A stretch of 64,000 nucleotides of DNA from Halichondria panicea (Eukaryota; Porifera; Demospongiae; Suberitida; Halichondriidae), in the NCBI RefSeq assembly GCF_963675165.1, contig NC_087393.1, positions 5,134,202-5,198,201 of the forward strand, in the 5' to 3' direction. Made by a program: the position numbers and the translations under genes. Each line of letters opens with the position of its first letter. The stretch's first letter is position 1. Below, in pieces: positions 1,782-41,688 of this stretch. A model generated the notes under the pieces. That model ran no database searches and was not told where the DNA came from. It saw only the letters and a list, made by a program, of their open reading frames with translations.

Positions 1782-4700
1782 TTAATATAACATTGATTGA
1801 TAATCATCGAAATCGAGTACAAGCAGTTTCGTATCCTCGATGCCATTCCTGCTGCCCACAGCACACACAAGCTTGCGCTCAGAGCACTTGACACGCCAGA
1901 CCACTCCACCTACAAGAGAGGGGGGCAGTAACACTCGTACAGTTAAGAGGGGAGGGGGTAGTAACACTTGTACAGTTAAGAGAGGGGGGGGTACGGTATA
2001 CGTAAGTCTCAATCTCACCATTTCCACCACTGTCTAGTTGGACAAGGTTGCGAATGAATTCCCCTGTCTTGAGGTCCCACAGTTTAACTGTACCATCATC
2101 GCTGCTGGTCACCACAAAGTTGTCTGTGAACTGTAGGCTAGTGACGGCACTGAGGTGTTTGTGAGGGCCTTGCAGAGTGTGCAGACACTGTCCTGTAGTG
2201 ATGTCCCACACCTGCATGTTCAGTGTCCATTGGAAAGGTTATTTTAAGAGCTATTGAATGCATCAATTAGATTTGGTCTGAACACAAATTACGGGCTCTC
2301 AAAGATAGCTACCCAACAGGTTGAATTCTAGAAAAAATCGCAAGGCCTTTGCTTTGGTGAATTTCGACTAGTCACACAGAATTTGTATCAGGAGCAGACA
2401 ATGTGTTACCTTGACTGTTGAGTCAGCATTTCCTGACACAAGAATATTCTTCCGGAGCATCATACCGCTGGTGAGGGATTGGTGTCCTGTGAGGGAGGGA
2501 GGGGGGTTAGTGAGGGGAGGGCGGTTAGTAAGGGGGGGTTAGTGAGGGGGGGTTAGTGGAGGGGGGTTAGTGAGGGGGGTTAGTGAGGGGGGGTTAGTGA
2601 GGGAGGGGGGTTAGTGGGGGGGGTTAGTGAGGGAGGGGGGTTAGTGGGGGGGGTTAGTGAGGGGAGGGTTAGTGGGGGGGGTTAGTTAGTGGAATTAGTG
2701 TAGGAGCGGGGAGTTGGGAGTTGAGGGGGCTACTTGCTACTTTATATACGGTCTCTACCTTTGAGGGTATGGAGGCATTGTCCAGTATTCGCATTCCAGA
2801 CCCGTATGTGTGTGTCTAGTGACCCACTCACAATATGGACACCATCAAACTGTATCAGATAACACACAGAAGAGTAGTAAACACAGCCAAATATTAGCAG
2901 AGTGTGCCAACAACACACAACACTTATATGCTCTGAACAAGGCCGTCCCTTACTTGTAGAGAGTAGACCCTGTTAGTGTGCCCTGTGAGGGTGTGTAGAC
3001 ACGCCCCCTCCACTGGGTCCCACACCTTCACAAGGTAATCATACGCTCCACTCACTACACGATGTCCATCAAACTGAACACTACACACACACACACACAC
3101 ACACACACAGGGAGAGACTAATAGCACACTGTTAGTGTAGATAGTGTGTACTAACCATCTGACAGCTGCCACATGACCTAGCAATGTTTGAGTGCACTCT
3201 CCACTCTCAATGTTCCACACACGCAGTGTAGAATCTCTGGAACCACTCACAACTGAAGGGGGAGGAAAAAAATTATCATACAACATACGCCAGTAGAGCG
3301 AGACAGTCCTGTGTATTAGTAGCTACTGTGTTAACCCACTCACCAACATTGCCTTGCAGTGCTATACACCTCACAGTGGAAGTGTGCCCATGAAGAACGT
3401 GTTTACTTTCTCCACTTTCACTGTCCCAAACCTACATCATCAGGGAGAATTTATTTTAATAATACTGAAGTTTACATCGTGACATTACGTACCCTCAGTG
3501 TTCTGTCTGTAGAGCCACTGACAACTGTAGACCCATCAAACTGTGAGCACCATACTCCTCCAGTGTGCCCAGTCAGCTGACGAAGATGCTGTGAGGGTGT
3601 GTGAGGTGTGTGTGTGTGGGCGTGTGAGGTGTGTGTGTAGGGGCGTGTGTGGGCGTACCTTGCCAGTGATGGCGTGCCATACACTGAGAGTGTTATCATC
3701 GGAGCCACTCACAACCCTGTTCCCTGAGAACTGTAGACATGTCACCACGTGGTCATCGTGACTCTTGAGGGTCTTGAGGCGGTGGGGAGGATTGATCTCA
3801 AGACGTCGCCAGTTATGGTCCACACGATGCTTTGTCAGGTACATCTGAAGAGACAAAGAGTGTACCGTATAGCGGGTAATTTCCGGGGATCAAACATTCG
3901 TGGTAGAGCAATATTTAGTCAGTTTGTGGATACTATTTTGTGTGGTTGCTGCTTGCACTGCAGGTAAATGTGGTCATAATTCGAGGGTAAAATATTCGTG
4001 CTCTGGGTTTCAGCCACGAAACCCCTGAAAATTACCCACTATAAATATAGCAAATTCATAATTAAATAATGAAAGTAAATTCTTAAAACTGACATTTTGG
4101 GCAGAAAGAATAAACCATGTATCAGCCTTGGGAAAACAATAATCACAACATTAACACATTATAATGGAATGCTGGTGCCTTGAAATCAGAGCTAGATCAT
4201 TCACAATAGACTCTTCCCTAGTGTCAATCTTCCCTAGTATCAATAGTGTTCCCTTACTCAGAACGTGCACGAATCACTACAAACTCAGTGCATGCATGTC
4301 ATTGCGGTCATAACGCTCAGGCCAAATACACTAGCACTTGTAGTGATTGTGCACGCATGTCGAACCTCCTCTGTCCCTTACTTACCTGTTTCCAAGGGTT
4401 ACTGAGGATAGCCCTGGAGGCCCTCAGCCCTGACTCCCCCACACCACACTCTCGACACTTCTCACGCCACAGTCTGAGGGAGGAGAGAGGTCATTACTTA
4501 CAAAACTAGAGATAAGGTAAGAGGTTCCTGAGGCTAGATAACTCCTTAGAGAACTTACAGGCAGTCCTCACAGAGGGTGTGCCAAGTGCGGCAAGTCTGA
4601 GCAGCCACGAGGAGGTCTCTGGGGGCCAGGAATCGCAATACATGCAGAGCAAGCTATGGGGTGGGGGGAATAGGCCTCCTCGTACATACACAGTATGATA

Positions 4701-4883
4701 TATAAGACTATGTTGGTCACCTCTTTGGGTAGTATTGAAATGAAGTCTCTTTGAAACTGTGGTCTATATGTGTAAGAGAGATGGGAAGTGATGATATATA
4801 CAATGTGGTAACACTTGGAGCTCTTACTGTATTTGCTCCATGAGACACTTTAGTTGAACAGAATCACACCTGCGCACACACAG

Positions 4884-4914
<31 letters not shown>

Positions 4915-5455
4915 GATTACCATGGCAGCATCACAACACACACAACAGATTCATGCTAACAAAGAACAATTGCTGCTAACATGGGTTCAACACTCTTGTC
5001 AACCCCCCTCCCTCCCTCCGGCTACTCACAGTGGGATAATGGCGTCGAGGCCAGCTATCCTGTGCTCGTGTGTCCAAGAGGAGAACGTGGACAGCCAATC
5101 CTCTATAAACGAAGGAAGTGGTGGGGCAGGACTAACAGACGGGGGATCATCAAAACTGCCAAAGTTGGCCATCCTGGAGAGTGCCAACACTGCATCGCTA
5201 TGTCCGGTAGCAAACAGACTGCATACAATCGATTTATAAATATATTATATCAGCAAAATTGTTTTACCTTGATGATTGCATTCTTGCTCTCTTAGCTTCC
5301 CCAACATTTGTGTATCCAGGTTCATTCAAGTCATCACTCCCTCCTACACTTGGCCTCTTCTACACACACACACACACACACATGGGAGGTGGTGGTTAGA
5401 GGGATACGCACACACGCACACACGCACACACACACACCCACACACACCCACACAC

Positions 5456-5487
<32 letters not shown>

Positions 5488-5602
5488 GAGAGAGGGGGAC
5501 CTGACTTACCCTGCCTACAACGGAGGGGCTGGCTGGACTGCATGGAGAGAGCAGGCCATCAGGTTGGTCAAATATCAACGCTCCTTCAAAGGAACCATTC
5601 AT
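1782..5602 (-). CDS. FBXW7: F-box/WD40 substrate receptor of SCF ubiquitin ligase (FBXW7/CDC4)
   Basis: This is the substrate-recognition subunit of an SCF ubiquitin ligase that binds phosphodegrons. About a dozen exons join in phase. The order is a short Ser/Pro-rich N-terminus (ATG at 5602), a dimerisation-like helix segment, the linker [14 protein letters not shown], an F-box ([20 protein letters not shown]), LWREKC, and then WD40 blades to the end. Several blades are nearly diagnostic of the family: [61 protein letters not shown] and AVGSRNG. The blade arginines in STDR and GSRD, where the degron-binding and cancer-hotspot residues of the human protein lie, are present. The acidic N-terminal extension of the longest vertebrate isoform is absent. 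Introns contain MITEs and a large branch-point-like array. Confidence 0.97.
1915..2005. repeat. Short minisatellite at the 3' splice site of the last FBXW7 intron
   Basis: About 2.5 copies of a unit of roughly 33 bp. In the sense of the minus-strand gene each unit reads C-rich, then CTCTTAACTGTAC, then GTGTTACT. The array ends at the acceptor TTGTAG just before the last exon (about 1911). It belongs to the same class as the arrays at 2490, 7188, 16206 and 39970. Confidence 0.8.
2490..2712. repeat. Intronic array of about 13 CTCACTAACCCCCC units (sense strand)
   Basis: On the + strand the sequence is a run of GGGGGGTTAGTGA-like units with about 13 to 15 TTAGT cores. In the sense of FBXW7 (minus) every unit reads CTCACTAACCCCCC, a CTAAC branch-point-like core followed by a polypyrimidine tract. 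The array ends directly at an acceptor (CCTCCCTCACAG) before the exon encoding GHQSLTSG. The G-rich strand could also form G-quadruplexes. Confidence 0.9.
3865..4047. mobile_element. MITE family A copy (TACCGTATAGCGGG ends), FBXW7 intron
   Basis: The left end is ACCGTATAGCGGGTAATT and the right end is AATTACCCACTATAAATA, a decayed inverted copy. It contains the family words ATTCGTG and AATATTTAG. No ORF is present. The same termini occur at 6585, 18560, 23619, 36572, 48140 and 51225 (some truncated). Confidence 0.75.
4259..4373. mobile_element. hAT-like MITE with 9-bp target duplication at an FBXW7 splice donor
   Basis: The element begins CAGAACGTGCACGAATCACT and ends AGTGATTGTGCACGCATGTC then GAACCTCCTCTG. 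TCCCTTACT lies immediately on both sides (4250-4258 and 4374-4382), which is direct evidence of insertion. The right duplication overlaps the 5' splice signal of the exon ending in PWKQ, so the donor is retained. A second member lies at 18085. The ends and an 8-9 bp duplication suit the hAT superfamily. Confidence 0.75.
5380..5490. repeat. CA/TG dinucleotide runs in the first FBXW7 introns
   Basis: There are CA runs near 5362-5381 and 5408-5488 on the + strand, interrupted by CG and CC. In the sense of FBXW7 the first run reads TGTGTGTGTAG and ends exactly at the acceptor before the KRPSVGG exon. Cysteine/valine or histidine/threonine reading frames through these runs are artefacts. Confidence 0.85.
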
Positions 5603-6349: not shown

Positions 6350-8119
6350 ATGGTTGACATCCTGGGACTCTTGTTCGCCTGTCTCTTCCTGATGGCCACC
6401 TTTGGGCTGAGTGTCCTGCTACTAGCCACGGTGAGGTGGCGAGGACAGACTGGACAGGGCCTAGTGCAAGTAGTCGTATTGGGAGATGCCGGGAGATCAC
6501 CACGCATGCTCTACCACTGCCTCTCTCTAGTACAGCTCAGCTACACCATCGACCTCATCGGATATGGAGGTATATATTAAATGTGTATCGTATAGCGGGT
6601 AAGTTTCATTGGTGCAAATGTTCGTACCAATGACCCATTAAATATTCGTACAGCTCAGGATAGTGATGTTGAATCTATTACAGTAGAATAATTTCGTAGT
6701 TTTAATTTTCGTATGATGCTCTTCAATACGAAATCTACAAACATTTCCGCCATACGAAAATAACCCGCTATATGGTATATGTGTGGTGATGTCATCTCCG
6801 CCCCCCTATTCAGGTTCCCCCCTCATCCGTGAGCTACGAGAGAGTGGGCGTCTCACCCACACAGTGCTCTGGTCACCACCCGCACTACTGGACGGTGAGT
6901 GGCTGAGTACACTCTCTTGCTTTTCCATAACAGAGGATACTGTAATGTCTCCACCTGTACTAGGACCTTCACACACACACACACTGACAACACACACACA
7001 CACACACACACAGGTCTCCCCCGGATCCTCCGATATGCTCTGAAGGCACTCTATCAAACAATGAGCTTGCTCTGGGCTGTGCTTATTGCTACCAAGAAAC
7101 CAAGCCATGTCCTAGTACAGGTGGGCTGAGGACTATGGAATGTAATCAACCTTTGTGTGTGCGTGTACAATAACACTAATTCCATAGACACCCCTGCATG
7201 CATGTATAGTAACACCAATCCCCCCACACAGACGCCCTTGCGATGCATGTATAGTAACACCAATCCCCCCACATAGACACCCCTGCATGCATGTATAGTA
7301 ACACCAATCCCCCCACATAGACACCCCTGCATGCATGTATAGTAACACCAATCCCCCCACACAGGCACCCTTGCGATGCATGTATAGTAACACCAATCCC
7401 CCCACATAGACACCCCTGGGATGCATGTATAGTAACACCAATCCCCCCCAACACAGACACCCCCTGCAATCCCTACACTGGCTGTGATGGTGCTAGCGTG
7501 TGCTATCAGAGGCAGTAAACTGATTGTAGACTACCACAACTATGGCCACACCATTCTGGCCCTGAGTCTGGGCCGGAAACACACTCTCGTTTTACTAGCT
7601 AAATGGTGAGAGCTTGTAGTTCTAGCAACTATTGATCTGGACACTATTGTATACTATAGGTATGAGAAACTAACGGCTGGTTTCTCCTTTGCCAACCTGT
7701 GTGTGTCAGAGGCTATGAAGAAAGACATGCGACGCAGCCTCGGAGTTAGGTAGACCTAGTTGCTATTGAGCTGCACATTAATACTGTCTCACCTACTCTA
7801 TAGGTCTATAGTGTTGTATGACCGACCTCCAGCTAGGTTTCATCAGGCTACTGTAGAACAGAGGCATCAGGTATAAATACTGCTGTGTCAGCCTATGTGT
7901 TTATAATTATTGTAATTTGTCTCCAGTTGTTTCTACGTCTGTCTGAGAGTGAGGCGGTGTTCCGTGGGGAGGGAGGGGGTACAAGGTTCACTCGAGAGGT
8001 TAATGGGGGCGTGGCAGTCCTCCGAAGGGACCGTCCCTTCTTCCTTATCAGCTCCACCTCATGGACAGAGGATGAAGACTTTGGCATACTCTTACAGGCC
8101 TTGGAGAGTGAGTGTGTGC

Positions 8120-8170
<51 letters not shown>

Positions 8171-9149
8171 GGTGTGTGTGGGTGTTATTACACACTTTGT
8201 TGTTGTTACAGTATATGAGGGAAAATGCTCTCAAGTGCCAGACGGAAGTTTACCACACATCTTGTGTGTCATCACAGGTACGAGTTATATGATAGTCATT
8301 GATAGTACATGTCATGCGACCTCCACTCCCCTCCAGGCAAGGGGCCTCTGAGGGAGCATTACGAGCAATGCATTGCTAAGAAGAACTTTTCTCATGTCAC
8401 CATCAAGACCATCTGGCTCTCTGCAGAGGACTACCCACTTATGTTGGGTGAGAGGGGTACTGTACAGCATGTCCATGGATTAGGGGCATATGGTTATATT
8501 GAAGTTTGGCTGTGTGTTGTGTGCTACCCCCCCTCATCCCCCCCTCACCCCTCACCCCTCACCCCTCACCCCTCACCCCTCACCCCTCACCCACCCCCTC
8601 ACCCACCTCTAGGTTCTGCTGACCTTGGTGTCTGTCTGCACAAGTCCTCCTCTGGCCTTGACCTACCTATGAAGGTGGTGGACATGTTTGGTAGCGGCCT
8701 CCCCGTGTGTGCCATCAACTTCAACTGGTGAGCCCCTTTTCTCCTCTTACTATCTCACCACTACTCTCTTTCTCTCTCTGTGTGTACAGTCTTCATGAGC
8801 TACTGAGACATCATCACAATGGACTGGTGTTCAATGATCATCAGGAACTGGCTGAGCAATTACAGGTACAGGTTAGCTAGTGGTTTCAGTAATTCTTCAG
8901 ATAAAGCTTTGTATATTGAGCTCTTTGAAGATGATGTGTTTAGATCGATGATCGCTTTCTAGACTAGCTTTGTACTGTGTATAATAATTATTCTTGTCCT
9001 TCCTCCTCGTGCAGACTCTGAGTACAGGGTTCCCCGATCAATGCAATCAGTTGGTCCGTTACCGTGAGAACCTTTCATCCTTCCAGAGCCTTCGTTGGGA
9101 CCATTACTGGAAGCTCCATGTCCTCCCACTCATTGCACCCCAGTCTTGA
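6350..9149 (+). CDS. ALG1: ALG1, beta-1,4-mannosyltransferase of the dolichol pathway
   Basis: This enzyme adds the first mannose, from GDP-mannose, to GlcNAc2-PP-dolichol on the cytosolic face of the endoplasmic reticulum. An N-terminal membrane anchor (LGLLFACLFLMATFGLSVLL) is followed by VVVLGDAGRSPRMLYH, then TPPAIPTLAV, KLIVDYHNYGHT, LAKWYEKL, STSWTEDEDF, ITGKGPLREHY, SADLGVCLHKSSSGLDLPMK, VVDMFG and GLVF. These are hallmark ALG1/GT33 blocks in the expected order. The last exon starts at 9015 and ends APQS-stop. The start at 6350 sits just before the anchor, and an alternative in-frame ATG at 6227 would extend the protein by 41 residues. Introns carry MITE and minisatellite arrays. The last exon was copied downstream at 11199. 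Confidence 0.97.
6585..6779. mobile_element. MITE family A copy, ALG1 intron 1
   Basis: The ends are CGTATAGCGGGTAAG and AATAACCCGCTATATGGTAT. The internal words ATTCGTACAGCTCAGGATAG and TTTTCGTATGATGCTCTTCA are shared with the copies at 36572 and 48140. It is noncoding. Confidence 0.85.
7188..7457 (+). repeat. Six 44-bp units, each resembling the adjacent ALG1 3' splice junction
   Basis: Each unit reads approximately ACACCCCTGCATGCATG, TATAGTAACACCAATCC, CCCCACATAG. The real exon that follows begins ACACCCCCTGCAAT after CCCCAACACAG, so the units repeat the acceptor AG plus about ten exon-like bases, preceded by a C-tract and an AGTAAC core. They lie wholly inside the intron before the TPPAIPTL exon. 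Confidence 0.92.
8526..8612 (+). repeat. C-rich CACCCCT heptamer array before an ALG1 acceptor
   Basis: About ten copies of TCACCCC/CACCCCT run up to the acceptor CACCTCTAG of the SADLGVC exon. It forms a long polypyrimidine-like tract on the sense strand. Confidence 0.8.
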
Positions 9150-9472: not shown

Positions 9473-10059
9473 ATGAAGACACTATACACACTTTTGGTTC
9501 CAGTTATTGTCAGTGTCGCTGTAGCCATTGGTAAGTTAATACTGTGTTACATTCTTTTAGATTCTACACATTCCTTCCCTCTACAGATAATCCTCAGAAT
9601 GGAGACATCCGATTGTCTGGTGGATCGTCTCTGAAAGGCCGTCTGGAGGTGTACAACAGCACCACTGATGTGTGGGGTACAGTGTGTTATACTAATGATA
9701 TAGCGCAGCAGAACTGGGAGAAGGGAGCAGCCAGGGCAGCTTGTCGTCAACTAGGCTATCAGGATGTCATTAGCGTTGGATCAGTCACTCAACTAATGTA
9801 ATTAAATGCCTGAGTGGATTAAGGTTTAATAGCCCTCACCCCTCCCCCCCCACACGTACATACACACAGTGTTCCACCTGCCCCTGAGACCACACCTATT
9901 CTTCTGTACGAAATGAGCTGTGTGTACAACACGGATGCCTCGGACCTCAACAACGAGATGGAGCATATTCTGAGATGTGATTTCTCTGAGGAGGGGAGTT
10001 GCAACCACACCCAGGACATGGCCATCGAGTGCAGTGAGTGAATGCTATTCCTGCACCCT

Positions 10060-10109
<50 letters not shown>

Positions 10110-11526: not shown

Positions 11527-12125
11527 ATGAAGACACTATACACACTTTTGGTTCCAGTTATTGTCAGTGTCGCTGTAGCCATTGGTAAGTTAATACTGTG
11601 TTACATTCTTAGATTCTACACATTCCTTCCCTCTGCAGATAATCCTCAGAATGGAGACATCCGATTGTCTGGCCTGGTGGATCGATCGTCTCTGAAAGGC
11701 CGCCTGGAGGTGTACAACAGCACCACTGATGTGTGGGGTACAGTGTGTTATACTAATGATATAGCGCAGCAGAACTGGGAGAAGGGAGCAGCCAGGGCAG
11801 CTTGTCGTCAACTAGGCTATCAGGATGTCATTAGCGTTGGATCAGTCACTCAGCTAAAGTAGTTAAATGCCTGAGTGGATTGAGGTTAATAGCCCTCAGC
11901 CCTCCCCCTCCCCCCCACACGTACATACACACAGTGTTCTACCTGCCCCTGAGACCACACCTATTCTTCTGTACGAAGTGAGCTGTGTGTACAATACGGA
12001 TGTCTCGAACCTTAACAACGAGATGGAGCATATTCTGAGATGTGATTTCTCTGAGGAGGGGAGTTGCAACCACACCCAGGACATGGCTATCGAGTGTAGT
12101 GAGTGAATGCTATTCCTGCACCCTC

Positions 12126-12156
<31 letters not shown>

Positions 12157-15827: not shown

Positions 15828-18800
15828 TTAGTCTTTGTGCTGAGGTGGCTTGTAATGCTTCCACTCCACGAGGGCAAAGGTCAGAGTTCCCACGGCTCCT
15901 AGCACCACCTGTACGAGATCAATGCACTCGTGTGGTTAAAGGTCAATACGAATAGACCAACTCACGAGAGCTAGCAGCTGCCACTGTAGTGTGATGAGGG
16001 AGGAGGTGAGGAAACCAACCATTGCCGCCAGTGACTACAGGGGGGGTATCATCAATGTGGGAGGGGGCTTTAACTCTTTGGTATTATTATACATATGCTT
16101 TTTAGACCTCTCTGTTGTAATAGCTTACCTGGAAGAATTTAAAGAGAGCCATGGCAGGAGCACTGTTTTCATCCGAGGGGTACAGGGCACCAATGATGGA
16201 GTAGATCTGTGAGGGGGGTAGTGGTGGGGGGTAGTGATGAGGGTAGTGATGGGGGGTAGTAATGGAGGGGTAGTGATGGGGGGTAGTGATGGGGGGTAGT
16301 AATGGAGGGGTAGTGATGGGGGGTAGTGATGGGGGGGTAGTAATGGAGGGGTAGTCTAGGACGTTGGTCTCACCTGTGTGTTGAAGCAAGCATCTCCCAG
16401 TCCCAGCAGGAACGCACACACCATCACGACATAGATACTATATGAGGGAGAAGAGAGAGGCTGATACAACACACTACATGTACAACATCTGTAAGTCAAC
16501 CAGCTAATATAGCATTAACATAGACGGAATCACACAATCTAAGCAAAGAGAATCCACCGACACACACACACACACACAGCAGACCACTGGTCTGCTGTGT
16601 GTGTGTGTGTGTGTCGGTGGATGGCCATTGTCCTGTGAGCAGACCACGGCCATGACCGAGGAATGCAGCCACAAAGTTTGCTCTTAGCCCTAACGTCAAC
16701 AGAAAGTTGGGGAATAAGTACAAGTGCAGACCAACCCTACATATAAGAGAGGTGTAAGTCTGCAGTCCAGCCAGTTTGCAAGACCCACAGAGAGAAAGCT
16801 AGCCCATCAGCTATCAGTCAGTATGACCAAGGTGAGTGAGTACTATAGCATTGTGCTGACACAGGAGATTAAGCATGTTGCGTGAGTGGGTGGTATGTGC
16901 CTGGGGGCTTTCCACAATAAAAACAGATCCCATGCTGCACACGATCAAACAACTATTACTCTATATACTGCAGCTATAGGTTTTCATTTTCAGTTGCACA
17001 GAGAGATACTGAATACTACTCATTGTGTAGTAGTAATGCTGTGACTCTCACGTGCACTGGTGACCACTAATTATAGTCAGCAACAAATAAAGCGTTACAG
17101 TGGATGCAGCTAGCTACATGCATGTAGTGCAGGCATGATAACAGCTACATGCATGCTGACAGCTACCATGCCAGTGCTAACAGCTACATGCATGCTACAT
17201 GCATGCTACATGCATGCTGACAGCTACCATGCCAGTGCTAACAGCTACATGCATGCAACAGCTACATGTACATGCATGCTAACAGACGTTGTCGTCCCCA
17301 CAGGTTAGGAACTACTTGTACTGCTCAGCCTAGCTGCACTCCTATCATCAGCAGCAAGCAAGGGAGGCGCTTGCCATGAGGTATTAGAAGTATTAAAAGT
17401 ATTGTACAGTTTCTTTTGATTCGAAATTTGAACCTCAGTAAAAACACTTGAAGTACTTGTACACCCACTCACAAACAGCTGTTTATGCAACCTACAGGAA
17501 CATGCTGGTTTGGTGCTTCAAGACATTATCCATAATGCACTTGTAAGTTGATACTTTAAGCGAAATGCGAGCTAGTGCCAGTTTAAAGCAATGCAGCCTA
17601 TCAGGCACGAAAATGTGCCTTGCTGTACAATTATACATAGTCTATGAAAGGTCAGTCACACGCACACTCAGTATGATCATCATTACTTAGGGGCCACAAG
17701 GAGGTTGTCTAGAAGCTGACCAGGTCCAAGTAGCTGTGTATGGACAAGGAGACACAATGGAGGCCAGAGTACTAACACTGGACAACCATGGCCTGGAGTT
17801 CAGGAACATACAACACACAACTAAAGACAGTAAGTGCTAGAGGTTAACTTGTACAGTGTTGGTGGTTGAACAATAACAAAACAGTGTTATTTCAAGATAA
17901 GAAGCAGGTCAAGCTTGTAACCAATAATAACTATACAGAGCTGACCACTACATTAGGAGGGCCAGCAAAGTCAACCATTTTATCAGCTTTACAAGTTTCA
18001 ATGCTAGTGTCTAGGCCACTCAACCGTGACCCGCCCACACATAGCTACACAAAGCCTTGGTTATAGCACCTGTGATGGGCAACGCAGAGGAGGTACGACA
18101 TGCGTACACAAATCACTAAAGGTTCAGTGTATTGATCTGGAACGTTATCACGTGACCACAAATGACATCAATGCGCTGAACTTGTAGTGATCCGTGCATG
18201 CATGTCGGACCTCCTCTGGAGCGGCCACTCTCTCGTAAGTCCCTCGCACTAATCGGCCATAACCAACAGGTGACAAATCTATCACCTTGTGTATTTACTT
18301 TTTATAATAGGTCTCTTCTACCTAGTGAGCATGCCACCCACCCCCCTTGACCTTCGACCCTGGTTCCTAATATTCAGCTCAGACATGCAGTCAGTGCTAC
18401 AAGTGGACAGCGATGGAACAATCGCCATGAAGGTATGTAGTTACAGACAATACTACATTACCTCATTAAAATCACCTCATGCTAATTAAATTCATGAGGC
18501 ATTAAACGAATTTCAAGAAGTATTATAATAACAAAGCAATCAAATGCATGACCTTCTAACCGTATAGCGCGAAATGTTCGAGGTACTTAAATATAAATTG
18601 TGTCCCAGGTCACGCCTTAAATCTTTGTACTTGAAAAGAAACATTTTCTTGTGCATGCATGTAGAATTGCTAACCTAACGAAAGCAGTGAAAATTAAGCT
18701 TCTCTAAAATTTCGCGCTATACGGTATAAAATAAAAGCAATGTAATCATTTTAAATGTCCATTTTCCCTCACAGGCTGCTAGTGATATCTCACTCGCTTG

Positions 18801-21519
18801 TTGTGCTCTGGCTGACTACCAGTTCTCCTTGAGGGAGGGTATGGACCACGCTCAGTTGGTATCTAGCCAGGGGGTAGTCGGTGTGACCCCCCAGGGAGCT
18901 ATGAAAGTGGGCGGGGCCACCTCTCGCTATCATGTGAGAATAGTCACTACTGTGGAGAAATGCTATCCAGGAGGGGAGGAGGCAAAGAACGACACAAAGA
19001 CTAACGAGTAAAGAACTGACTAACTCTAAACTGCCAATCTTTAATTAAACAAATTGTGTACAATATTTAGTATTACACACACTCACTTTGATGGGTTGAA
19101 TAGCGCTCCAAATGAGTCCGGTACGGATATATTCTTTATACTGGAATTCTCGGGGAGGTTGTAAAAGACGAGTAGATACACAGCAAAGTGTACTAGCATG
19201 CCCAATAGTACCACCGGGTCCTTGCCCCAGCGATTAGTATAGCGACCAAATATACCAAACAAACCACCTCCTGTAATATCATAGATTACATGACATTAGT
19301 ATACAGTTACAGGGTGAATGCCAACCTACCGACTATCTCTCCAAGACCAATGAAGAGTCCAGCTAGTCCAATGTTGGCCCTGTTGAACACTCCAGTCCTA
19401 CCCACTACTGTACCGTACACTCCACTCCAGAAGTTGAGCTCGTACCCTACACGGAGAAGATATAGCTCCCTCCACACACCCACACAGCCTCCCACACACA
19501 CACACACACAGCCTCCCCCCACACACACACACATCCACCCACACACTCTACCTGTGTAGATGAAGGTGATGCTGAGCAGCATCATGTCCACACTAAACAT
19601 GAGCTTCACAGCACGTACTACAAGGAGAGAGGAGAGAGGGTAACACATGAGAGATCATTATTATATAGTATATGACAGTGAACACTAACCTAGTGACCTG
19701 CCAGCTACGATACAAGCAGCCTTTCCACTCAAGGGGGCAGTACTATAGTCAGTGGTACCCTTTGTAAGCAATCCCTTGTTCTCACTGTGTGGGGGGGGGG
19801 CAGTGTGGGTAAGTGTGTGAGGTGTGTGTGTGGTGTGTGCCTACCTCAGACCCTCGTTGACATTTACAGCTGTTGAATGGATGCTTTTAGGAGCTTTTTC
19901 TCTGAGGTTGACTAGCCACAGTATGACAAAAAACATCACCCCCAATAAACCAAGCACAGTGAACACTCCAAAGATGATGTAATTCTCCGAGTGTTCTGTG
20001 TGTGTGGGGTGGGGGTGGGGTGTGTGTGTGGAGTGTGTGTGAGGTCTTTCCTTACCTAAGCAAATGTTGTCTCCTTTCTGATAGGACAGGAAAATAAAGA
20101 AGAACAGGTTGCCATAGATCAAGCTGTGGGGGGTAATGATATTATCATCTCTGTGGGGGGTGGTGGTAACGTACCTTGACTGTAGCATAAGCCAGAATAT
20201 CCCGCTAGTGACAGGCATGCGACTCTTCGAGGAATTCTGGATTAGTATCTGCCCCTGTGCCGTCCAGAGAACTGTGTGAGGGGGGTGGGTGGTTAGCGGA
20301 GTGGGTGTGGTTACATGACTCACTTCCTCCGGCACTGCCCAATAGGAATGCTCCGATGAATATCATTGGAACGTAAGGTCGAACCAGAGCCCCTATATAC
20401 ACCCTGTCAGCCAAATAATAATAATAATCGTATGATGTGCTATTAGTGACTGGAGAGTGTACAGCAATTAATCCTGTATCACATCCGGTCCAGTAATTGC
20501 ACGCTGTCAATGATAACGTATTGTTTTTAGAATAACGACCGCAGTTGAAAATAAAACTGTAGAGAACTGTACCATAAACGATGAAGTTTGATAGTTCATA
20601 ACAAGCACTGGTAAAGTTAACAGCATTCGTACAATTAGAAGTCTTGCCATTGCTTGTTACTCGTATGTCATTCTTAGCCATACCATAATTATACAAATTC
20701 CTACCAGGAAGTAATTTAAATGCAGTGTCTAACTCACACGTATAAGGCTCCAGTGATGATGAGGGACAGACGTGATCCAAACACTGCCACCACGGGTACT
20801 GACAACCAGTTGCCAATGGCAACCATCAGGTAGATGAGACACAGGCTACAAACATTAATACCTGACGCAGCTGTTACTATGGTTACACACACCCACTCAC
20901 CTGTAGTAACCGAGCTCAGCTGTGTGTGTGTGTATGTTATATAAATCAGTGCATTCAAATAACAGATTAATACTTCACTTACAAACAAACTCCTCAGTGA
21001 TAGGGATGCCGCCCTACAGGGAGAGATGCATGCATGGGTGATTAACACATGGTTATGGAATGTACATGACATGTTACTGATTTATAGGTATGTGTGGGTG
21101 TGATTCTCACATCAATATAGGTGCCGCTGCCGTTAGTTGAGTTGCCTTGACATTTTGGGGATAGAAAGCTGTTGATTGTGATCGTCTGAAGCACAATAGA
21201 GTATTAGTACCATATTCATGTAAGGGACAACACATACCTGTACAAATGCTGACGTCTGGAAGGCAGTAAAGAGAAACATGAAGCCAAAGCCTAGAAGGAC
21301 AATGTTCAGCCAGTTCTTCTTGCTCATAGTTAGTAGCTGAACGGACTCCATCTTGTTTCTCTGGCCTCTGACTAATGGTTCCTCTGAATGGCTGGGTTCG
21401 GGGTGGGTCTCTGGGTCTAGTGTGGGTAATAGCGTCTCCTGGTCACTCTGCTCGGCCTCAGATACTCCTATAGAGAGCAGCTCTAAGCTTTCTGCATGGA
21501 CAGCTAGTTGACCTTCCAC
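15828..21519 (-). CDS. MFSD11: UNC93-like major facilitator protein MFSD11
   Basis: Multi-pass membrane protein of the UNC-93/MFSD11 group, with unknown substrate. The N-terminal extension is acidic (about 65 residues before MSKKNWLNIVLLGF), then come GFMFLFTAFQTSAF, IYLMVAIGNWLSVPVVAVFG, VLWTAQGQ, SGIFWLMLQS, LSITFIYTG, NFWSGVYGTVVG, IGLAGLFIGLGEI, KDPVVLLGMLVHF, LLGLGDACFNTQ, DENSAPAMALFKFFQ, LQWQLLAL and LVEWKHYKPPQHKD, all in the family order. The intron from 16438 to 19086 is exceptionally long for this window and holds an opposite-strand gene. The start is the most upstream ATG; MESV or MSKK are alternatives. The exon at 20335-20420 may be extended at its 5' side (see findings). Confidence 0.93.
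16206..16368. repeat. Minisatellite filling an MFSD11 intron
   Basis: In the MFSD11 sense the units read CCATCACTACCCCC and CCATTACTACCCCT, about ten in all. The array occupies essentially the whole intron between the DACFNTQ and IYSIIGALY exons and ends at CCCCCTCACAG. Confidence 0.9.
16552..16622. repeat. Perfect 35-bp-arm palindrome containing (CA)9/(TG)9
   Basis: The left arm (16552-16586) is ATCCACCGA, (CA)9, GCAGACCA. The right arm (16588-16622) is its exact reverse complement, and one C separates them. It lies in the long MFSD11 intron, 200 bp upstream of the nested gene. Confidence 0.95.
16738..16822 (+). promoter_or_regulatory. TATA-type promoter of the nested secreted-protein gene
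   Basis: ACATATAAGAG at about 16740 lies 80 bp before the start codon, and a CAGTC-like initiator follows around 16770. This is one of the few clear TATA boxes in the window and would give the nested gene its own promoter inside the MFSD11 intron. Confidence 0.5.
16823..19011 (+). CDS. Predicted secreted protein, nested in an MFSD11 intron (unknown function)
   Basis: I do not recognise a family. Six exons join in phase: 16823-16831, 17309-17380, 17498-17542, 17691-17829, 18311-18432 and 18775-19011, giving about 207 residues. Exons 1-2 make a strong signal peptide (MTKELLVLLSLAALLSSAAS). The mature part has Cys at GGACHE, GGCLEAD, SLACCALAD and VEKCYPGG, few charged repeats, no further membrane helix and a charged C-terminus (KNDTKTNE). 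The gene reads opposite to MFSD11 and lies wholly between two of its exons, ending about 75 bp from the next one. The intron at 17830-18310 carries a hAT-like MITE and the last intron carries a family A MITE. The exon model is manual. Confidence 0.65.
17096..17290. repeat. Tandem repeat rich in ACATGCATGC palindromes
   Basis: Units such as CAGCTACATGCATGCTGA and CAGCTACCATGCCAGTGCTA alternate about five times in intron 1 of the nested gene, ending close to the signal-peptide exon. Confidence 0.85.
18085..18218. mobile_element. hAT-like MITE, second copy
   Basis: Terminal inverted repeats of about 33 bp start CAGAGGAGGTACGACATGCG on the left and, inverted on the right, CAGAGGAGGTCCGACATGCA. 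Both continue into a ...ATCACTA segment, as in the element at 4259. It lies in an intron of the nested gene. No clear target duplication is visible. Confidence 0.75.
18560..18727. mobile_element. MITE family A variant (GCGCGAAA ends)
   Basis: The ends are ACCGTATAGCGCGAAATGTT and ATTTCGCGCTATACGGTAT. The outer dozen bases match family A while the inside differs, so it is a sub-family. Confidence 0.8.
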
Positions 21520-22182: not shown

Positions 22183-24071
22183 GTACTGACTCCAGTACGG
22201 TTGGAGCAGCTCAAGGATCAGCTATTGGAGGAGTGCAATCGGGACAACCAGAAGGTAGGTACAACAATCTCTGTGTGTGTACAGCCTCGTATATTATAGT
22301 TTGATTTGTTTACAGATGGTGGAGTCACTAGAAAGTCAGTTGGAGGCTCTGGGCAGGTGAGAGACTGAGTCCTATACCTGCCTGTAATGGTGTATGTGTC
22401 TGTGTAGGGAGTGCAGTGAACTGAGGTACAACTACTCATTCCTCAAGGCAGAGCATGGGAACGTAATGGTGGGTGGGCATAGTTATTGTAATTATGAAAT
22501 ATTCCTTGACACAGACAACTCATCAGACAGTACTGCAAGAGTTGCAGGCCAAGCACCAGACAGAGGTGGGTGTTTGATCATGTGTGTCTGTGACACTGAC
22601 AAAGTTCTGCTTTTTCTCTAGCTGAATGCCTACATTGAGGAGAGGAAGTCGTTTATAGCTCGTAATGAGAGGGACATTCCCACTGACGTACAGCGTATAA
22701 GACAGCTACAGAGGAAGAACAACGATGTGAGTATGTATGCATGTGTTACCAGTGGATCATGTGACTAACAATATCCCATAGCTTCAACAAAAGGCCAAAG
22801 GTCTCCTGGCCGAGAATGAAGACTTGAGGGGGGAGAGGGAGGTGATGGCAGCACTTACTGAGCAGGTACGTCGCTAAGTGGGTGTGGTCATGATGTCATA
22901 TCCTGTTGTGTAGAGTCAGCAAGGAGCGTGTCAGGAGGTGGCTGAGTTGAAGGCAACCGTCAAAACACTACAAGTAATTACTTCCCTAGATATTTATTAT
23001 AATCGTGTGTATTACAATTCTCTCATCAGTTTGAGTCCTCTGCTCAGAGTGAACAGATTGTCTGTTTGCAAGGAGAGCTGGGGAAGGCCAGACAAGAACT
23101 GGTCTCCCTCAATGAACAGCTAGCACTGGTACACACGCAACTGGACAACACCAAGAGGTAGGCCACTACTAGTCTTAACTGTGCTACGTAACTATTCATG
23201 TGTTTGCTGTTATAGGAGGCTGAGTGAAGCAGAGCATGAGCACTCTCTAGAGTTAAGCCAGCTCAAGATGAAGCACTTGGACGTTGTGAGGGAACTAGAG
23301 GAAGGACGAGAAGTGTGTGTGACTGAGTGTAAGGCACTAGAGGCACAACTGGAGGCTCAGGGGAGGAGTATAGAGGCCAGGGACTCTCTGCTTGCTGATA
23401 AGGTACCTATGGGATCACACTGTATTATTGTAGGTTGCCCCCCCCCCCCGACACACTCAGGAGCGTCAGTGTGAGAGTCGGGTGACAGCTGCCAGAGAGA
23501 GAGAGTGGGAGAAACAAGTGCTACTAGACAGAGAGAAAGTTGAACTAGAGGGAGCTGTGGCCAGTCTACAACAGTCAGTGCAATAATTATTGTTAGCATA
23601 ATTCGTGTACGTGTAATGTACCGTATAGCGGGTAATTATTTTTGTTGTCCAACTTTTCGTATTAACTACCTAAATATTCGTGCTCAGAATGGTGACGTAG
23701 AACCTAATGCGCTTTATTTCGAATGATGCTCTACAATACAAAAAGTTCCACATACAAAAACCCCCGCTGTACGGTATTGTAAATCGTACTGCATGAACAC
23801 TATAGTTGGTACTATACCAATACCTCCTCCCCTCCTACAGAGAGTTGTCCCAAAGCCGAGAAGGTGGTGATGCAAGAGTGGTGTCACTGGAGGACAAGGT
23901 CAGACAACTCTCCACTGCTAAGGTATGGTCAATTTAATTTATTGACTTAGTAACAGAATTATGGCTGTTCAAAAAATTCTGTAGAGTGGTCTGGAGTCAG
24001 AGTTGGAGCTGCTGAGAAGTCAGTTATCAGACAAGACGAATGAGCTACAGTCTGTGATGATGGTGAGTGTG

Positions 24072-24103
<32 letters not shown>

Positions 24104-25270
24104 TGTGTGTGCTATACATGTACAATCACTGTATGTACAAACCAGGAGATGAAGCAAATAGCAGGTGTGAGCAGAAAGTATCAATCCCTACTATCTGAGC
24201 ACAGAAAGTGAGTGATTACACCACAGTACCCCCACATATCCACCACCCCCCACAGATTGGAAAGTTTAGTGACTGAACTTAGAGAGTCTAAACTTTCCAC
24301 TGAAGATTCATTAAGAGAGGTCCAGACACGAGGCAGAGGGCAGGGGGAGACTTTTGAGCGAGTGAGAGACAAATTAACACAAGATCTCCACACAGAGAAG
24401 TGCGTCTGTGTGTGTGTGTGTCTGTGTGCGTGTGTGTGTGTGTGTGTCGTGTATAATTATTGACGGACTTCACACTTCAGGACTTTGTGGGAAAGGGAGA
24501 GAGATGGTTTACTGGGCAAGCTGAAAGATTGTGAGTCCAGCAAACAGTCACTGGAACAACAGTTAACAGCCTCAAAAGCCACCAACAAAAAGGTACTAGG
24601 GAAAAATGTATGATAGATTTTCTGAACCTTAGAAAGAGATGTTTCCATGCATATTTCGTCAGGCCCATAATAAACATTTCGGCCTTGAACCACCATGGGC
24701 TTTTGATAACACCATTTCTTTTCCCTAAGCTTTCATAAAGTCATAAAATTATTGATAATTTTATTGGATCCACAGGATTCAAGTTATCGTATCATTATGG
24801 CAGCATACATTCTAACCCCCGCCCTTTATACAGTTGCAGAAGCATTACAAGAAGCAGATTATAGAGCTGGAGTCCAGTGCTGAAGTATTGAGAGCACAAC
24901 AGGAGAGAGCAACCACTGAGAAACAGGCACTACAGTGAGTAGCCATTTCTCTCATGCAGTGGGTGTTATTCTGTACGTGTGTGTCTATAGGAGTTCACTG
25001 AAACTGGAAAATCAGAGGCTACAAAGAAAGCTGTCTAATGTGAGCATTTGCTATTGGCCTGTATTAATATCGTGTGTATATTTATGCTCATGCAGATACT
25101 GCGTTCACAGAAGGAGTTCCAGTTCTTGTTGCACAACCAACCACAGACACAGTACCTCTCTTTCCCTCAACACCTGGTACGGCCATTGTGTGTGTGCCTA
25201 TTACCTTCACTGTATAATCATGCAGGAATCAACTCAAGACACAGACAATTTAGATACATGTAGAGAATAA
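21749..25270 (+). CDS. CEP83: Centriolar distal-appendage coiled-coil protein, CEP83-like
   Basis: About 20 short exons encode an almost uninterrupted coiled coil of roughly 640 residues. Collinear family blocks are LLDQRMRAEKHKTNFEALKA near the N-terminus, QVLTPVRLEQLKDQL, ELRYNYSFLKAEH, repeated leucine-rich heptads, and a C-terminal LENQRLQRKLSN with RSQKEFQFLL. CEP83 anchors distal appendages of the mother centriole and is needed for ciliogenesis. Coiled coils align by chance, but the order of these four blocks is specific. Two introns (22097-22182 and about 24062-24147) are largely TG/CA. A family A MITE lies in the intron at 23600-23838. Confidence 0.87.
23619..23776. mobile_element. 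MITE family A copy, CEP83 intron
   Basis: The ends are ACCGTATAGCGGGTAATT and CCCCGCTGTACGGTAT. The internal words TTCGTATTAACTACC and AATGATGCTCT match other members. Confidence 0.85.
24600..24790. mobile_element. Degenerate fold-back repeat, CEP83 intron
   Basis: Contains CTAAGCTTTCATAAAGTCATAAAAT, a weakened match to the ends of the elements at 39165 and 46690. It is a likely but eroded relative. Confidence 0.4.
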
Positions 25271-31202: not shown

Positions 31203-31269
31203 GTGTACAAAACACCACCAATAATGCTCTTTATTTCTTATTGATCTTTACCACAAGTTCAGTAATTTA

Positions 31270-37037: not shown

Positions 37038-37144
37038 TTAGAAGCTTGATGGAAGAAGATAGAACGTTTCTTTTACGGTATTCTCTGCAACTTGTGAAGT
37101 TCCCTACAGAAAAGGGGTTGGTTGGTGGGCGGGGCTACTGAGCT
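37038..37144. promoter_or_regulatory. Very short bidirectional promoter, RNPS1/EEF2KMT
   Basis: Only 107 bp separate the two start codons. It contains GGTGGGCGGGGCT (37123), a strong GC-box, 12 bp before the EEF2KMT ATG. Confidence 0.6.
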
Positions 37145-40100
37145 ATGGAGAGACTGCTGGACCAGTACCTTGCTGCAGTTCCTTTGAGGGACTTCCAATG
37201 GACGAACGTGAGCTCCTGTATACCCACACACACACACACTAACCTAGCTGTGCAACCTGCAGGTGGAGGCACTTACTGAAGAGGTGCAGCAGAAAATGCT
37301 GGATGAGGTATAAAATCGATCTAATTAAATTCATGCAATGCATTTCATGATGTACAGGTTGTGAGGTCCCCCCTCGCTGTATCGCACTCCCCCTCACCTG
37401 CTTATCAGGCGGCCTTTCTCAAAAAACTCATGGCAAAGGTACATATGCGTACGATAGTGAACAATACTCATCTCTACAAACTGACACACATACTCAGAAC
37501 TACTACACACATACTCAGAATGCTCCACTACAAATAGGCCCTGTCTATAACGGACCGATAAGCAATTGATTGATTGAATATTGTCATTAGGTGGAGGCTT
37601 ATGAAGGCACAATAGTAGAGGGGATCTATGAGCTGTATGCACAGCTGCTATCAACCCCGACATCAGAGCAGCAGGGTTATTCCTGGAGGTCCTATCACTT
37701 GGTGAGACAGTATAATGCTGTCTTTACATGTACTGTCTGTTTGTCCAGCACAATGGTGATTATGTTAGTCTAATGGAGTCTCCCTACCTCATCTCCTATG
37801 GCACTACTGGCCTCACCACTTGGCAGGTATAGAGCTGGGGATGTGTATAAAGTGTAGGTTCTGTGTGTATGGATGACCCCCCCCCCCCTTGCTGCAGGCT
37901 GCCCTCAGGTTTGTGGAGTGGGTGTCTTCTCCACAAATATCAACGCTTTTCCATTCAAAGTAAGTGTACAATTAAGTACCGTGTATTGTACATACACTAC
38001 GTTAAGTTAAGGTATTATTGTGTACATGTACTAGTAGCACTTGTACTGTGTGTCTCACCCGCTCTACAGGAGGGTGCTGGAGTTGGGGTGTGGTCTGGGG
38101 CTGACTGGCCTGGCTCTGTGTAAGCTGTGTTCCCCCTCCTCCCTCTGTTTCTCTGACACTCATCCCAGGGTCCTCCACTGCCTCAGGGGAAACGTGGAGC
38201 ACAACTCACCAAGTAAGTACAGGGAGGATCATTGTCATCCATACCTAGGCTGTCAAAATGAGATATTCCTCTCCAGGCCAGTGTCGGCCCTAGAATTACA
38301 CACTGGATTTATTTATTTTTTACTTTGAGCATTTCTAAAATGGAGCTTTAATTGTTTGCTGCAATGTAGAAGTTACTATTAGCATGGAGTTCTAACTGTT
38401 CTTGTTCCTTCAGGCAGTAGTGGAGTGAGTACAGAGGTTGTCCAGTTGGACTGGGGCAGTCAGGAGGACATTAGCTCCTTCCTTACCTCTCACACACTGG
38501 ACTACATTATAGCCACAGGTAAAGTACCAATAGCCTGTTCTAGGAGGCCATGGTAGGTCATGGGTTCATTGTGCTAGCAGCATTGTGTATATTCCCAGTA
38601 TAATCTCTATACTAGGTAGCCGTGAATAATGTCAGTATTGAGCTTGAATTTTGAATACCATTACTTTGTATACTGTTCCTGGTATATTGGCTTTGAATAC
38701 CCACACCAGTGTTATTGTCTACTTAAACACTTTGATGCTACAGCACTGGGGCAGCCCCAGGGTATTCTAGGGGACAGGGAACTCCCATGTTGTGCTTGTG
38801 GTTCTGAGAATGCACTCCAGAATGATTGAGCAGTTTTTCCTCATAAAACCACTGTACAGTTGTACAGTTATTCAGTTCTGCTAGTTTTTCTGCCTTTTTC
38901 CTGGCAAGTTGCAAGTCTTAATTTAGCGGTGTTTGGTTAGTTTTTCTGGAGCTACTACTGACTGGACAGGATGAGTAGTTGGACGTTGCATATCAAGGAG
39001 TTGCAAGGATCCACAGTGGACATTTGTCTACCCAACCCCAGCGTGAGTGAACTAGCTAGCTAGTAGTTCCTGTAATAAATTAATAATGCTTGTAGTATCA
39101 TTTCTGTCTGCATTTTTCATTCCTACTTCACATGTAGTTTGCTGCGTTAAATAACTTTGAACGGCCATAAATTTAGTTCCGTTGGTCCAATAACATGATT
39201 TTCTGAAAGCTTATAGAGAGAAGCCTTTCAGATGATGTGTTAAAATTTTTGACAAAATATCATAGGCTATTATAATTATTTGGTTTTTTCTTGAAAATTG
39301 GAAATTAGGGCTTTATGACCTGTTCCAACTTGAGGGTTTGAGCATATTGTCTGAAAGAGCTCCTTCTAAGCTTTCAGAAAATCATAAAATCATTGAATTT
39401 GGACCATCAGAACTCTATAGTTATACAGAGCCGACTATAAACGCAGGGAACCCGGCGTTAATAAGTAGAGCAGCTCTTTGAACGGCCATTATATTAGTTT
39501 CGATTTCTTTGCTACTGCAGACTGCTTCAGTGTTGGATGTTAAGACAGCCTACCATCGCTGTGAGCACACGGTGCCCCCGTATCAACAGAGACTGGTGTT
39601 TGAGAGAACTGAACTGGACGATGACAAAATGCTCTCTAGCTATCCTCAGATTGAGAATGGAGCCTCCATTTTCCTCATTAGATTGATTCCATTCCAACTG
39701 TTTGTGAAGGGAATGGATGGCTCCAGCCACACCATCTCCATTCCAACAAAGACCCCCGAGGTGTGTGGGTGTGTGTGTGTGGGTGGGGGAAGGGTGTATG
39801 GATGTTGCGCCTTGTACCTAGGTGGCTGGAATATTAACTATATTCATGTGACTGTGCATGTAGCTATAAGGACAAGTTGTTGTAGTTGCTTCACCTCAAT
39901 TCAATAGTACAAGTTGTTCACATCCCTTTTTGATTCGATTCAATTACCTTCTTGTAGTTGAGGTTACTACAATACATGCATATACTCACAACCCCCTCCT
40001 CTCCCCCTCCTCTCCCCCTCCTCTCCCCTCATAGCATACATGCATATACTCACCCCGGCCTCCCCCTCCTCTCCCCTCATAGCATACATGCATATACTCA

Positions 40101-41688
40101 CCCCTCCCCCTCCTCTCCCCTCATAGCATACATGCATATACTCACCCCGGCCTCCCCCTCCTCTCCCCTCATAGCATACATGCATATACTCACCCCGGCC
40201 TCCCCCTCCTCTCCCCTCATAGCATACATGCATATACTCACCCCTCCCCCTCCTCTCCCCTCATAGCATACATGCATATACTCACAATCCCCTCCCCCTC
40301 CTCTCCCCCCATAGCGGTATCTGGTCTCCCGTCTCAAGAAGCTGATTGAAGAGAGGACCGGGGTCAGGCCCGAGGAACAGCGACTGCAGTACGGGGGGAA
40401 ACAGCTGGTCGATAGTAACACACTCGGAGATTACAATCTCACTAGTAATGCCACCCTTCATCTCGTAGCTCGTCTTCGTGGGGGGTCTGGATTCTACGAT
40501 AGTGCCGTTATAATGGGGTGTGGTCATTCTATGCGAAAATCAGCACTCTACAGCCACTGCATGAGTGCAGTCAGGAACAAGAAGAGTCTCGTATCTTGTC
40601 CATTTTGTTACTCTGAGTGGAGTATGCAATCGTTGAAATCCAAGAATCTCAGTACAGCTCAACTGAACGAGATAGAGGAGGGGCTAACGAAGAATTTCTG
40701 TCTGAGCATGCCCGGTGTCAAGTCATGTGATCTGTGTGGAAGTGTGTGGAGTGACGGTGTAGTGAGTGGGCGTGTGTGCCCCTCGTGTGTGAGCAAGACG
40801 CGTGATGATACACAAGCCACTCTCAAAGTTCTAGCAGAATGTGAGACTAAAACAATTGGTGAAGCTATAGCTTGTCCGGCCATTCGAGGATGCCCTAACT
40901 GTGGCAAGCTGATTCATCACACTCAGGATTGCAGGCGTGTGGATTGCAATAGTTGTAGGACAACCTTCTGCTTCAATTGTCTTATTATTCGACCCCCTAA
41001 CTACGGAGACTATTACAACTGCCGTACCAACTGCTCGACTGCTCGACGACAGACTGTACTGCCAAGAAAATAACTTTGGAAACTTTTAAAATTCTCTAGA
41101 CGAATGAATTGTAGCTATTGTATATAGTGTAAACATTTTGTGTTATTGTCCTCAATTCCATACGTTTACTACATTATCGACCTGTATTATTATTATTATT
41201 ATTGAGAATTGTTAATGCCGTATGTTAAACAGAGTCACTTACTTAAAAGCGTTTATATCTACCTGCAGATGTGGTGTATGATGTCCCAACTATAAACTCG
41301 TTTGTCAGTTGTCTGGTGCAACTATTAAGGTACATCTAGCTGCCACCACCTCATCACGTATCAGCCATAACACTCCTCTCAGGTGCAACCCTGGAGCGGT
41401 GGCCGTGGTGACCTCTACCATAAGGAACACTGACACCTACCAACACTTCATGCAGACCACACGTAAGCAACTCTTGATAGAGCAAGGTCCTACCTACATA
41501 ATAATTATCTGCAGATAAAAATAACTGTATCACCAAGTTTACCTCGTTATTCTCCCCCTCCCCCCCCCCCCCCTCATACAGATAAGGCTGGACTGGCATG
41601 CACTGTGGTGGATCTAAGCAACACTCGGAGGCACTTCTATTATGACCACTCACAAACCATTGAACTGTTAGAACTTAAGCTAACTTAA
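37145..41688 (+). CDS. EEF2KMT: eEF2 lysine methyltransferase (FAM86/EEF2KMT)
   Basis: Class I SAM-dependent methyltransferase that modifies a lysine of elongation factor 2. The N-terminal part is [19 protein letters not shown], then [20 protein letters not shown] and [17 protein letters not shown]. The SAM motif is [19 protein letters not shown], with [19 protein letters not shown] next and VQLDWGS later. The exon ending DYIIAT stops at a GTAAAG donor (about 38520) and the next family block, [14 protein letters not shown], lies at 41268. Joining them keeps phase and restores the IATDVVYD motif. The intervening 2.75 kb intron contains a complete ubiquitin/RBR gene on the same strand. The final exon ends LLELKLT at 41688. 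Confidence 0.92.
38971..41073 (+). CDS. Tandem ubiquitin-like / RBR-like E3 protein nested in an EEF2KMT intron
   Basis: Three exons encode about 340 residues: 38971-39044, about 39521-39760, and 40315-41073. Residues 3-83 form a divergent ubiquitin-like domain ([27 protein letters not shown]). Residues 84-160 form a second, better one ([35 protein letters not shown]) that ends in a true RLRGG before Ser. A Cys/His region follows: [15 protein letters not shown] and CPFCYSEW (RING-like half), [10 protein letters not shown] and CPSC, then [18 protein letters not shown] and [13 protein letters not shown], resembling an RBR RING2, where TQDC offers the candidate catalytic Cys. The frame ends [10 protein letters not shown] recognise this as a ubiquitin-RBR type architecture but know no symbol. 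It shares strand and intron with EEF2KMT. Confidence 0.85.
39165..39425. mobile_element. Fold-back repeat (GATTTTCTGAAAGCTT ends)
   Basis: GAACGGCCATAAATTTAGTT with CATGATTTTCTGAAAGCTTA at the left is mirrored by CTAAGCTTTCAGAAAATCAT at about 39370. The element at 46690 matches it in opposite orientation. It lies in intron 1 of the ubiquitin/RBR gene. Confidence 0.7.
39970..40314 (+). repeat. Six 40-50-bp units, each a copy of a 3' splice site
   Basis: Each unit has ATACATGCATATACTCACC, a CCTCCCCCTCCTCTCCCC tract and TCATAG. The true acceptor after the last unit is CTCCCCCCATAG before CGGTATCTGG. Six decoy AGs therefore precede the real one. Chance ORFs run through the array on both strands and are not genes. 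Confidence 0.92.

Follow-up and report, generated by a model that had tools for sequence, protein, structure and literature searches.

The window analyzed here is a 64,000-nt stretch of the Halichondria panicea genome (G000:C17:5134202-5198201), taken from an assembly of 131 Mb in 39 contigs, of which C1-C17 are 5.7-18.1 Mb long. It contains FBXW7, a gene with a glycosyltransferase match, an UNC-93-family gene, and a ubiquitin/IBR-domain gene (the last three were named ALG1, MFSD11, and RBR in an earlier note on this DNA), and the introns of these genes carry tandem repeat arrays next to their splice sites. Tandem Repeats Finder (TRF) returned 59 rows in the window and recovered, close to where the earlier note had placed them, six intronic arrays described there as C-rich in the sense RNA and adjoining the 3′ splice site. 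Both descriptions hold: judged by TRF and the coding strand of the surrounding gene, 6 of 6 are C-rich on the coding strand (sense-C; G-rich arrays are called sense-G), and all lie within 8 nt of the inferred acceptor or cross it, the distances being, in order, 4, 2, -12 (crossing), 8, 2, and -1 nt. These six arrays, further arrays at acceptors, the mirror cases at donors, and two exceptions are as follows (coordinates of the first twelve from TRF).

1914-1993, minus strand: sense-C array with a 33-nt unit, in FBXW7 intron 1910-2018 (109 nt), 4 nt from the acceptor
2489-2686, minus strand: sense-C array with the unit ACTAACCCCCC(TC), a branch-like sequence plus a C-run, 2 nt from an FBXW7 acceptor
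7183-7468 (TRF rows from 7183 and 7186), plus strand: sense-C array of 6.3 units of ~45 nt, crossing the acceptor 7456/7457
8527-8604, plus strand: sense-C CCCCTCA array, 8 nt from the acceptor 8612/8613
16209-16355, minus strand: sense-C array of CACTACCCCCCAT units, 2 nt from the acceptor of intron 16207-16373 in the UNC-93-family gene
39992-40315, plus strand: sense-C array with units of ~44-48 nt in the ubiquitin/IBR-domain gene, inferred used acceptor 40314/40315
3590-3656, minus strand: CA/C-rich array, absent from the earlier note, filling nearly all of a 70-nt intron (3589-3658)
46407-46585, plus strand: (CA)90, running directly into the acceptor CAG
51806-51889, plus strand: CA/C-rich array ending at the acceptor
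8108-8185, plus strand: GT array (gtgagtgtgtgcgtg...) beginning at the donor
24063-24111, plus strand: GTGC/GT array beginning at the donor
53360-53433, plus strand: GT array beginning at the donor
3078-3109, minus strand: sense-GT array, 4 nt from an acceptor (exception)
4875-4912, minus strand: sense-GT array, 5 nt from an acceptor (exception)

The orientation and position of such arrays were scored in 284 kb out of the 131 Mb, namely the window and 22 stretches of 10 kb (the unseen loci) that were picked by position alone, outside the data of the earlier note, with one per contig C1-C17 at 1 Mb plus five at 4 or 9 Mb. Introns were predicted ab initio with a 13-state hidden Markov model (HMM) gene finder, self-trained on the same sequence, and some exons are wrong. 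Its acceptor model spans only -3 to +1 and holds no pyrimidine tract, its noncoding model treats both strands alike, and a tandem array earns almost no coding score, all of which limits circularity. This yielded 525 predicted introns, 177 of them in the window. Arrays were called strand-skewed if their absolute GC skew and their GC content were each at least 0.4, and near an intron end if within 30 nt of it. Predicted introns contain 64 of the 75 strand-skewed arrays, 43 of them sense-C and 21 sense-G (40 of the 64 in the unseen loci), whereas those called exonic (9) or intergenic (2) were excluded from the orientation counts.

C-rich tandem repeats tend toward the 3′ end of introns and G-rich ones toward the 5′ end. 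Among arrays near one end only, sense-C arrays lie at the acceptor in 20 cases and at the donor in 1, and sense-G arrays in 2 and 10 cases, respectively (Fisher p = 7e-6); the remaining 31 intronic skewed arrays are near both ends (10) or in the middle (21). This mirror rule was first noticed in L002-L018, and L019-L023 were fetched afterwards. The unseen loci by themselves gave 11 acceptor and 1 donor for sense-C and 0 and 6 for sense-G (p = 4e-4), the rest of their 40 intronic arrays being near both ends (2) or in the middle (20). The scan for a sense-C bias close to acceptors that the earlier note had proposed is thus positive in the sequence covered, with 11 sense-C against 0 sense-G arrays at the acceptor only. 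Similar results were obtained with a splice model knowing only GT and AG (acceptor/donor 21/1 for sense-C and 5/12 for sense-G, p = 1.7e-5) and, across all loci, with introns between well-scoring exons (13/1 and 0/4, p = 0.0016).

Arrays also adjoin a splice site more often than they do when placed at random in the same introns. In the unseen loci, 12 of 28 sense-C arrays lie within 30 nt of an acceptor compared with 3.9 by random placement, so that the regularity seen in six arrays goes beyond chance, and 7 of 12 sense-G arrays lie at donors compared with 3.0. Over all loci, the matched ends hold 27 sense-C arrays at acceptors (12.3 expected) and 13 sense-G arrays at donors (7.0 expected), and 18 of these 27 and 7 of these 13 touch the splice site (at most 4 nt away) or cross it. 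The opposite ends show shortages: sense-C arrays at donors number 8 versus 12.3 expected over all loci (p = 0.02), and sense-G arrays at acceptors number 1 versus 2.95 in the unseen loci (p = 0.02). The 47 unskewed intronic arrays had no significant excess at either end under the main model, the largest being sense-C at acceptors (9 versus 6.2, p = 0.065). Simple runs in the donor and acceptor halves of 394 introns follow the same rule, both for GT of at least 10 (15/7) and CA of at least 10 (5/21; p = 0.001) and for the homopolymers G5 (18/5) and C5 (13/46; p = 5e-6).

Within the window, the 24 skewed intronic arrays comprise 15 sense-C arrays, 9 near the acceptor only and 6 in introns so short that both ends are near; the other 9 are sense-G, 4 near the donor only, 2 near both ends, 1 in the middle, and 2 (3078 and 4875) at acceptors. 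The claim that all C-rich arrays share one orientation and one position was therefore too strong. The C-at-acceptor rule itself stands; however, because sense-G arrays favor donors as sense-C arrays favor acceptors, it is only half of a mirror rule, which also covers donor arrays rich in GT or G and acceptor arrays that are simple CA repeats.

Sequence comparison supports several of the predicted array junctions. AP4B1 (L009) aligned over 358 residues to 358 without gaps across three array introns, and methylmalonyl-CoA mutase (MMUT, L015) over 73 residues without gaps across a CA-array acceptor; the alignment of PLC-gamma (L010) is gap-free at the junction of array 3455 and has a two-residue gap near the junction of array 4614. 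In the window, both exons flanking array 1914 fall, on the basis of the match table, within a single match to human FBXW7 (105 residues to 105), and at array 2489 the match starts about where the downstream exon starts. An UNC-93 Pfam match spans the junction of array 16209, and a ubiquitin-domain match spans that of array 39992, with 76 residues on 72 profile positions (four extra residues). The glycosyltransferase match of the gene holding arrays 7183 and 8527 is below Pfam's cut-offs, and one of its exons searched against the PDB gave one weak, unrelated match only; a window exon searched against a plasmid collection gave no match. Among the errors of the HMM, FBXW7 exon 2954-2969 is probably wrong, the donor by eye being near 2757, and the CDK8 acceptor (L017) was put 26 nt from its array, where homology, read by eye, places it closer.

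At acceptors, some arrays are pure (CA)n ending in CAG, others mix C-runs with CA, and others again are minisatellites, the units differing between arrays. The unit at 7183 contains a near copy of the acceptor together with the first nt of the next exon, and at 39992 six upstream copies of the acceptor CTCTCCCCTCATAG precede the inferred used one; because the unit includes the acceptor, both introns close with a series of acceptor copies. Of the 12 upstream YAG sites at 7183, 7 shift the frame and the 5 in frame all meet a stop; at 39992 one of the six copies keeps the frame (frame alone scored). The earlier note had taken the units for polypyrimidine/branch modules, which by eye fits arrays 2489, 8527, and 39992. 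As a general unit, however, the branch-point module was rejected: CTNAC is found on the C-rich strand of 6 of 17 C-run array units compared with 5.3 in shuffled units, and YTNAY in 7 of the 17 compared with 7.5, neither being above chance.

Introns free of arrays share the preference for C-runs at their 3′ end. In 156 array-free high-confidence introns, CCCC is present in the last 50 nt of 35 and in the first 50 nt of 11 (GGGG in 3 and 8, respectively), and the most enriched words near their acceptors include CTCCCC and CCCCCC. In 5 of 163 array-free introns, CTNAC followed by C4 occurs within 60 nt of the 3′ end, and the backward control gave 0. Judged by the C-runs, the acceptor arrays resemble the extreme of a signal that ordinary introns also have, which is less clear for the donor arrays.

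Patterns were also counted genome-wide against the same pattern read backwards. C7-N-(CA)6 is strongly directional, with 3350 occurrences versus 99 backward (e.g. G000:C1:2707435), counts that are inflated by overlapping matches and duplicated stretches, and with a following G the numbers are 201 versus 2. (CA)8GG occurs 1066 versus 168 times; the flank control (CA)8TT gave 504 versus 188, so that reading a pattern backwards is not a neutral control, and a ~2.4-fold excess remains for GG. Tandem CTAAC-C5 was found 38 versus 0 times, at 12 places that are partly telomere-like, and tandem CTCAC-C5 77 versus 53 times. Of four independent places with tandem CTCAC-C5, L024 and L027 hold a sense-C array 1-3 nt from the predicted acceptor, and in L031 four short introns have sense-C arrays at 26-37 nt from their acceptors. 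A loose pattern of a G-run before CAGG (2281 versus 1482) was discarded, the count being swamped by dispersed repeats and overlapping matches. Separately, the matches of L024, L025, and L026 lie 7478 bp apart on C1 and have the same gene model with arrays at the same coordinates, apparently a tandem duplication.

The best explanation of these results, to which we give a probability of roughly 55%, is that repeats grow from splice signals and then pass a filter imposed by splicing. In this account, many ordinary introns already consist of C-runs and CA steps at their 3′ end, and the donor begins with GT. Low-complexity signals of this kind may be prone to slippage and tandem duplication and could lengthen into arrays on the same strand and at the same position as the signal, C/CA running up to the acceptor and GT/G starting at the donor. 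Where the duplicated piece happened to span the splice site, the intron would as a result carry a row of copied acceptors, and an array on the wrong strand would impair the signal at that end and be removed. The counts fit expansion in one orientation as well as selection for it. Growth from the signal together with removal of wrong orientations is favored because the matched-end excess exceeds the opposite-end shortage, because contact with the splice site, or overlap with it, is frequent among the arrays, and because two adjacent gene copies in the window, with matching intron ends, carry acceptor CA arrays of 23 and 14 units (10034-10107 and 12099-12154), the length of which has changed since the duplication. 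A more far-reaching claim, that splice sites are a main birthplace of tandem repeats and that copied 5′ or 3′ signals of fixed orientation, with rows of redundant acceptors, arise in thousands of introns, we advance tentatively and with some doubt; by rough scaling, the 12 acceptor arrays in 220 kb of unseen loci correspond to some thousands of introns in 131 Mb.

Several observations weigh against growth from splice signals or against the mirror rule on which it is built. When only introns between well-scoring exons in the unseen loci are counted, the contrast is borderline (8/1 versus 0/2, p = 0.055), and the 7 skewed intronic arrays of L019-L023 offer no confirmation, 0 lying within 30 nt of an end. 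Under a flat model, unskewed sense-G arrays are in excess at acceptors (9 versus 5.7, p = 0.035). Individual arrays break the rule as well: the two GT arrays at 3078 and 4875 adjoin acceptors, a CA array adjoins a donor (L014 5131), and at one of the four CTCAC-C5 places (L028) the array is G-rich on the predicted sense strand. Genome-wide, AG(GT)8 is found 630 times versus 849 backward, with a backward control that is itself not neutral. Finally, array-free introns lack a GT bias at donors (of 156, 16 have GTGTGT at the donor end and 15 at the acceptor end), and seeding is for this reason better supported at the 3′ end.

The opposite-end shortages would also be expected if repeats arose anywhere, in either orientation, and splicing tolerated C/CA as a pyrimidine tract and G/GT near donors and removed the others. 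Such a filter alone nevertheless predicts no matched-end excess, which is the larger effect, and does not sit well with arrays that often touch or cross the splice site; we regard it as unlikely. Still less probable is an order of events in which the repeats came first, the C/CA arrays being dispersed elements or old satellites whose ends were adopted by introns as splice sites. The arrays would then have supplied the pyrimidine tract and CAG (or GT), and a directional C(n)(CA)(n) element could become a 3′ or a 5′ end according to its orientation. This account retains some probability because C(n)(CA)(n) tracts are themselves directional, as the counts for C7-N-(CA)6, with and without the following G, indicate; in addition, of six occurrences of a looser C-then-CA pattern in the 284 kb, three lie within 11 nt of an acceptor (sense-C) and one at a donor (sense-G). 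Three tracts in the same sequence have the opposite order, however, the units vary from array to array, and array junctions sit in conserved genes (AP4B1, MMUT, PLC-gamma, CDK8, and FBXW7). With a bearing on introners or transposon-borne introns, one array searched genome-wide gave a single match, itself, and paired GT/CA ends were found in 0 of 394 introns.

The latter count also concerns RNA bridging of the kind proposed for zebrafish, in which a GT repeat at one end of an intron pairs with a complementary CA repeat at the other and so draws the two splice sites together. Each end by itself carries the right repeat, yet GT of at least 10 in the donor half and CA of at least 10 in the acceptor half never occur together in the 394 introns (each at least 70 nt), compared with 0.8 expected from the 15 and 21 introns that have one or the other. 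G4 coincides with C4 above chance but not significantly so (10/33 versus 70/361, p = 0.17; high-confidence introns, p = 0.08). Because the GT/CA expectation is so small, weak pairing keeps a slim chance, and we consider bridging very improbable. Hardly any credence is left for ordinary sampling, that is, six striking cases having been picked: the earlier note did leave out sense-G arrays and simple repeats, but the rule recurs in the unseen loci, and this explanation is refuted for the sample examined.

The nearest relatives of these arrays, with which they have dinucleotide repeats at intron boundaries in common, are the AC/GT repeat introns of zebrafish, which Lin et al. in 2016 are said to have found to carry complementary repeats at both ends and to be spliced independently of U2AF2. 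Unlike those introns, the arrays described here are single-ended, as the absence of GT/CA co-occurrence shows, and they include C-rich minisatellites as well as rows of acceptor copies. Tandem alternative acceptors (NAGNAG and similar) are a known class, and arrays 7183 and 39992 likewise place several acceptor copies before one exon; in contrast to that class, the copies lie 44-48 nt apart, and at 7183 every upstream YAG site shifts the frame or meets a stop.

For G-quadruplexes, passages of PMC9065059 give an enrichment at the 5′ splice site of 5.56-fold on the non-template and 2.38-fold on the template strand, with a weak asymmetry at the 3′ splice site that also points toward sense-G (3.01 non-template, 2.78 template); another passage gives a larger 3′ asymmetry along the gene, and the authors there regard the enrichment at splice sites as restricted to mammals and birds. 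A preference of G-rich sequence for the sense strand at the 5′ splice site is shared with our results, whereas the 3′ end is here strongly sense-C. In Gomafu, tandem UACUAAC repeats are reported to lie in the exon of a noncoding RNA (PMC3116199); there the tandem motifs are branch-point-like, whereas here branch motifs are not general and the arrays lie at intron ends. Among the titles and abstract openings listed for the literature searched, which mostly leaves subscription papers outside and so offers no proof that the rule is unpublished, there is no report of a mirror rule that includes minisatellites.

If the growth of repeats from splice signals is true, the birth of repeats is tied to these signals, and the sponge offers a natural experiment on the amount of pyrimidine tract and the number of copied acceptors that an intron can bear, as well as single-ended repeats at intron ends, for which bridging from one end to the other gives no explanation. 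Should splice sites be a main birthplace of repeats, rows of redundant acceptors would act as a lasting source of new splice sites. Any annotated genome allows a test of the mirror rule.

Three further arrays may be mentioned. In the PLC-gamma gene, a sense-G minisatellite with a 46-nt unit extends over 377 nt (L010 1953-2329) and lies 28 nt from the donor. In the window, arrays 19473-19546 and 19998-20045 were placed by the HMM, in error, within exons that it predicted for a second membrane-transporter-like gene; on inspection of the sequence, the former looks like a sense-G array following a donor and the latter like a sense-C array preceding an acceptor.

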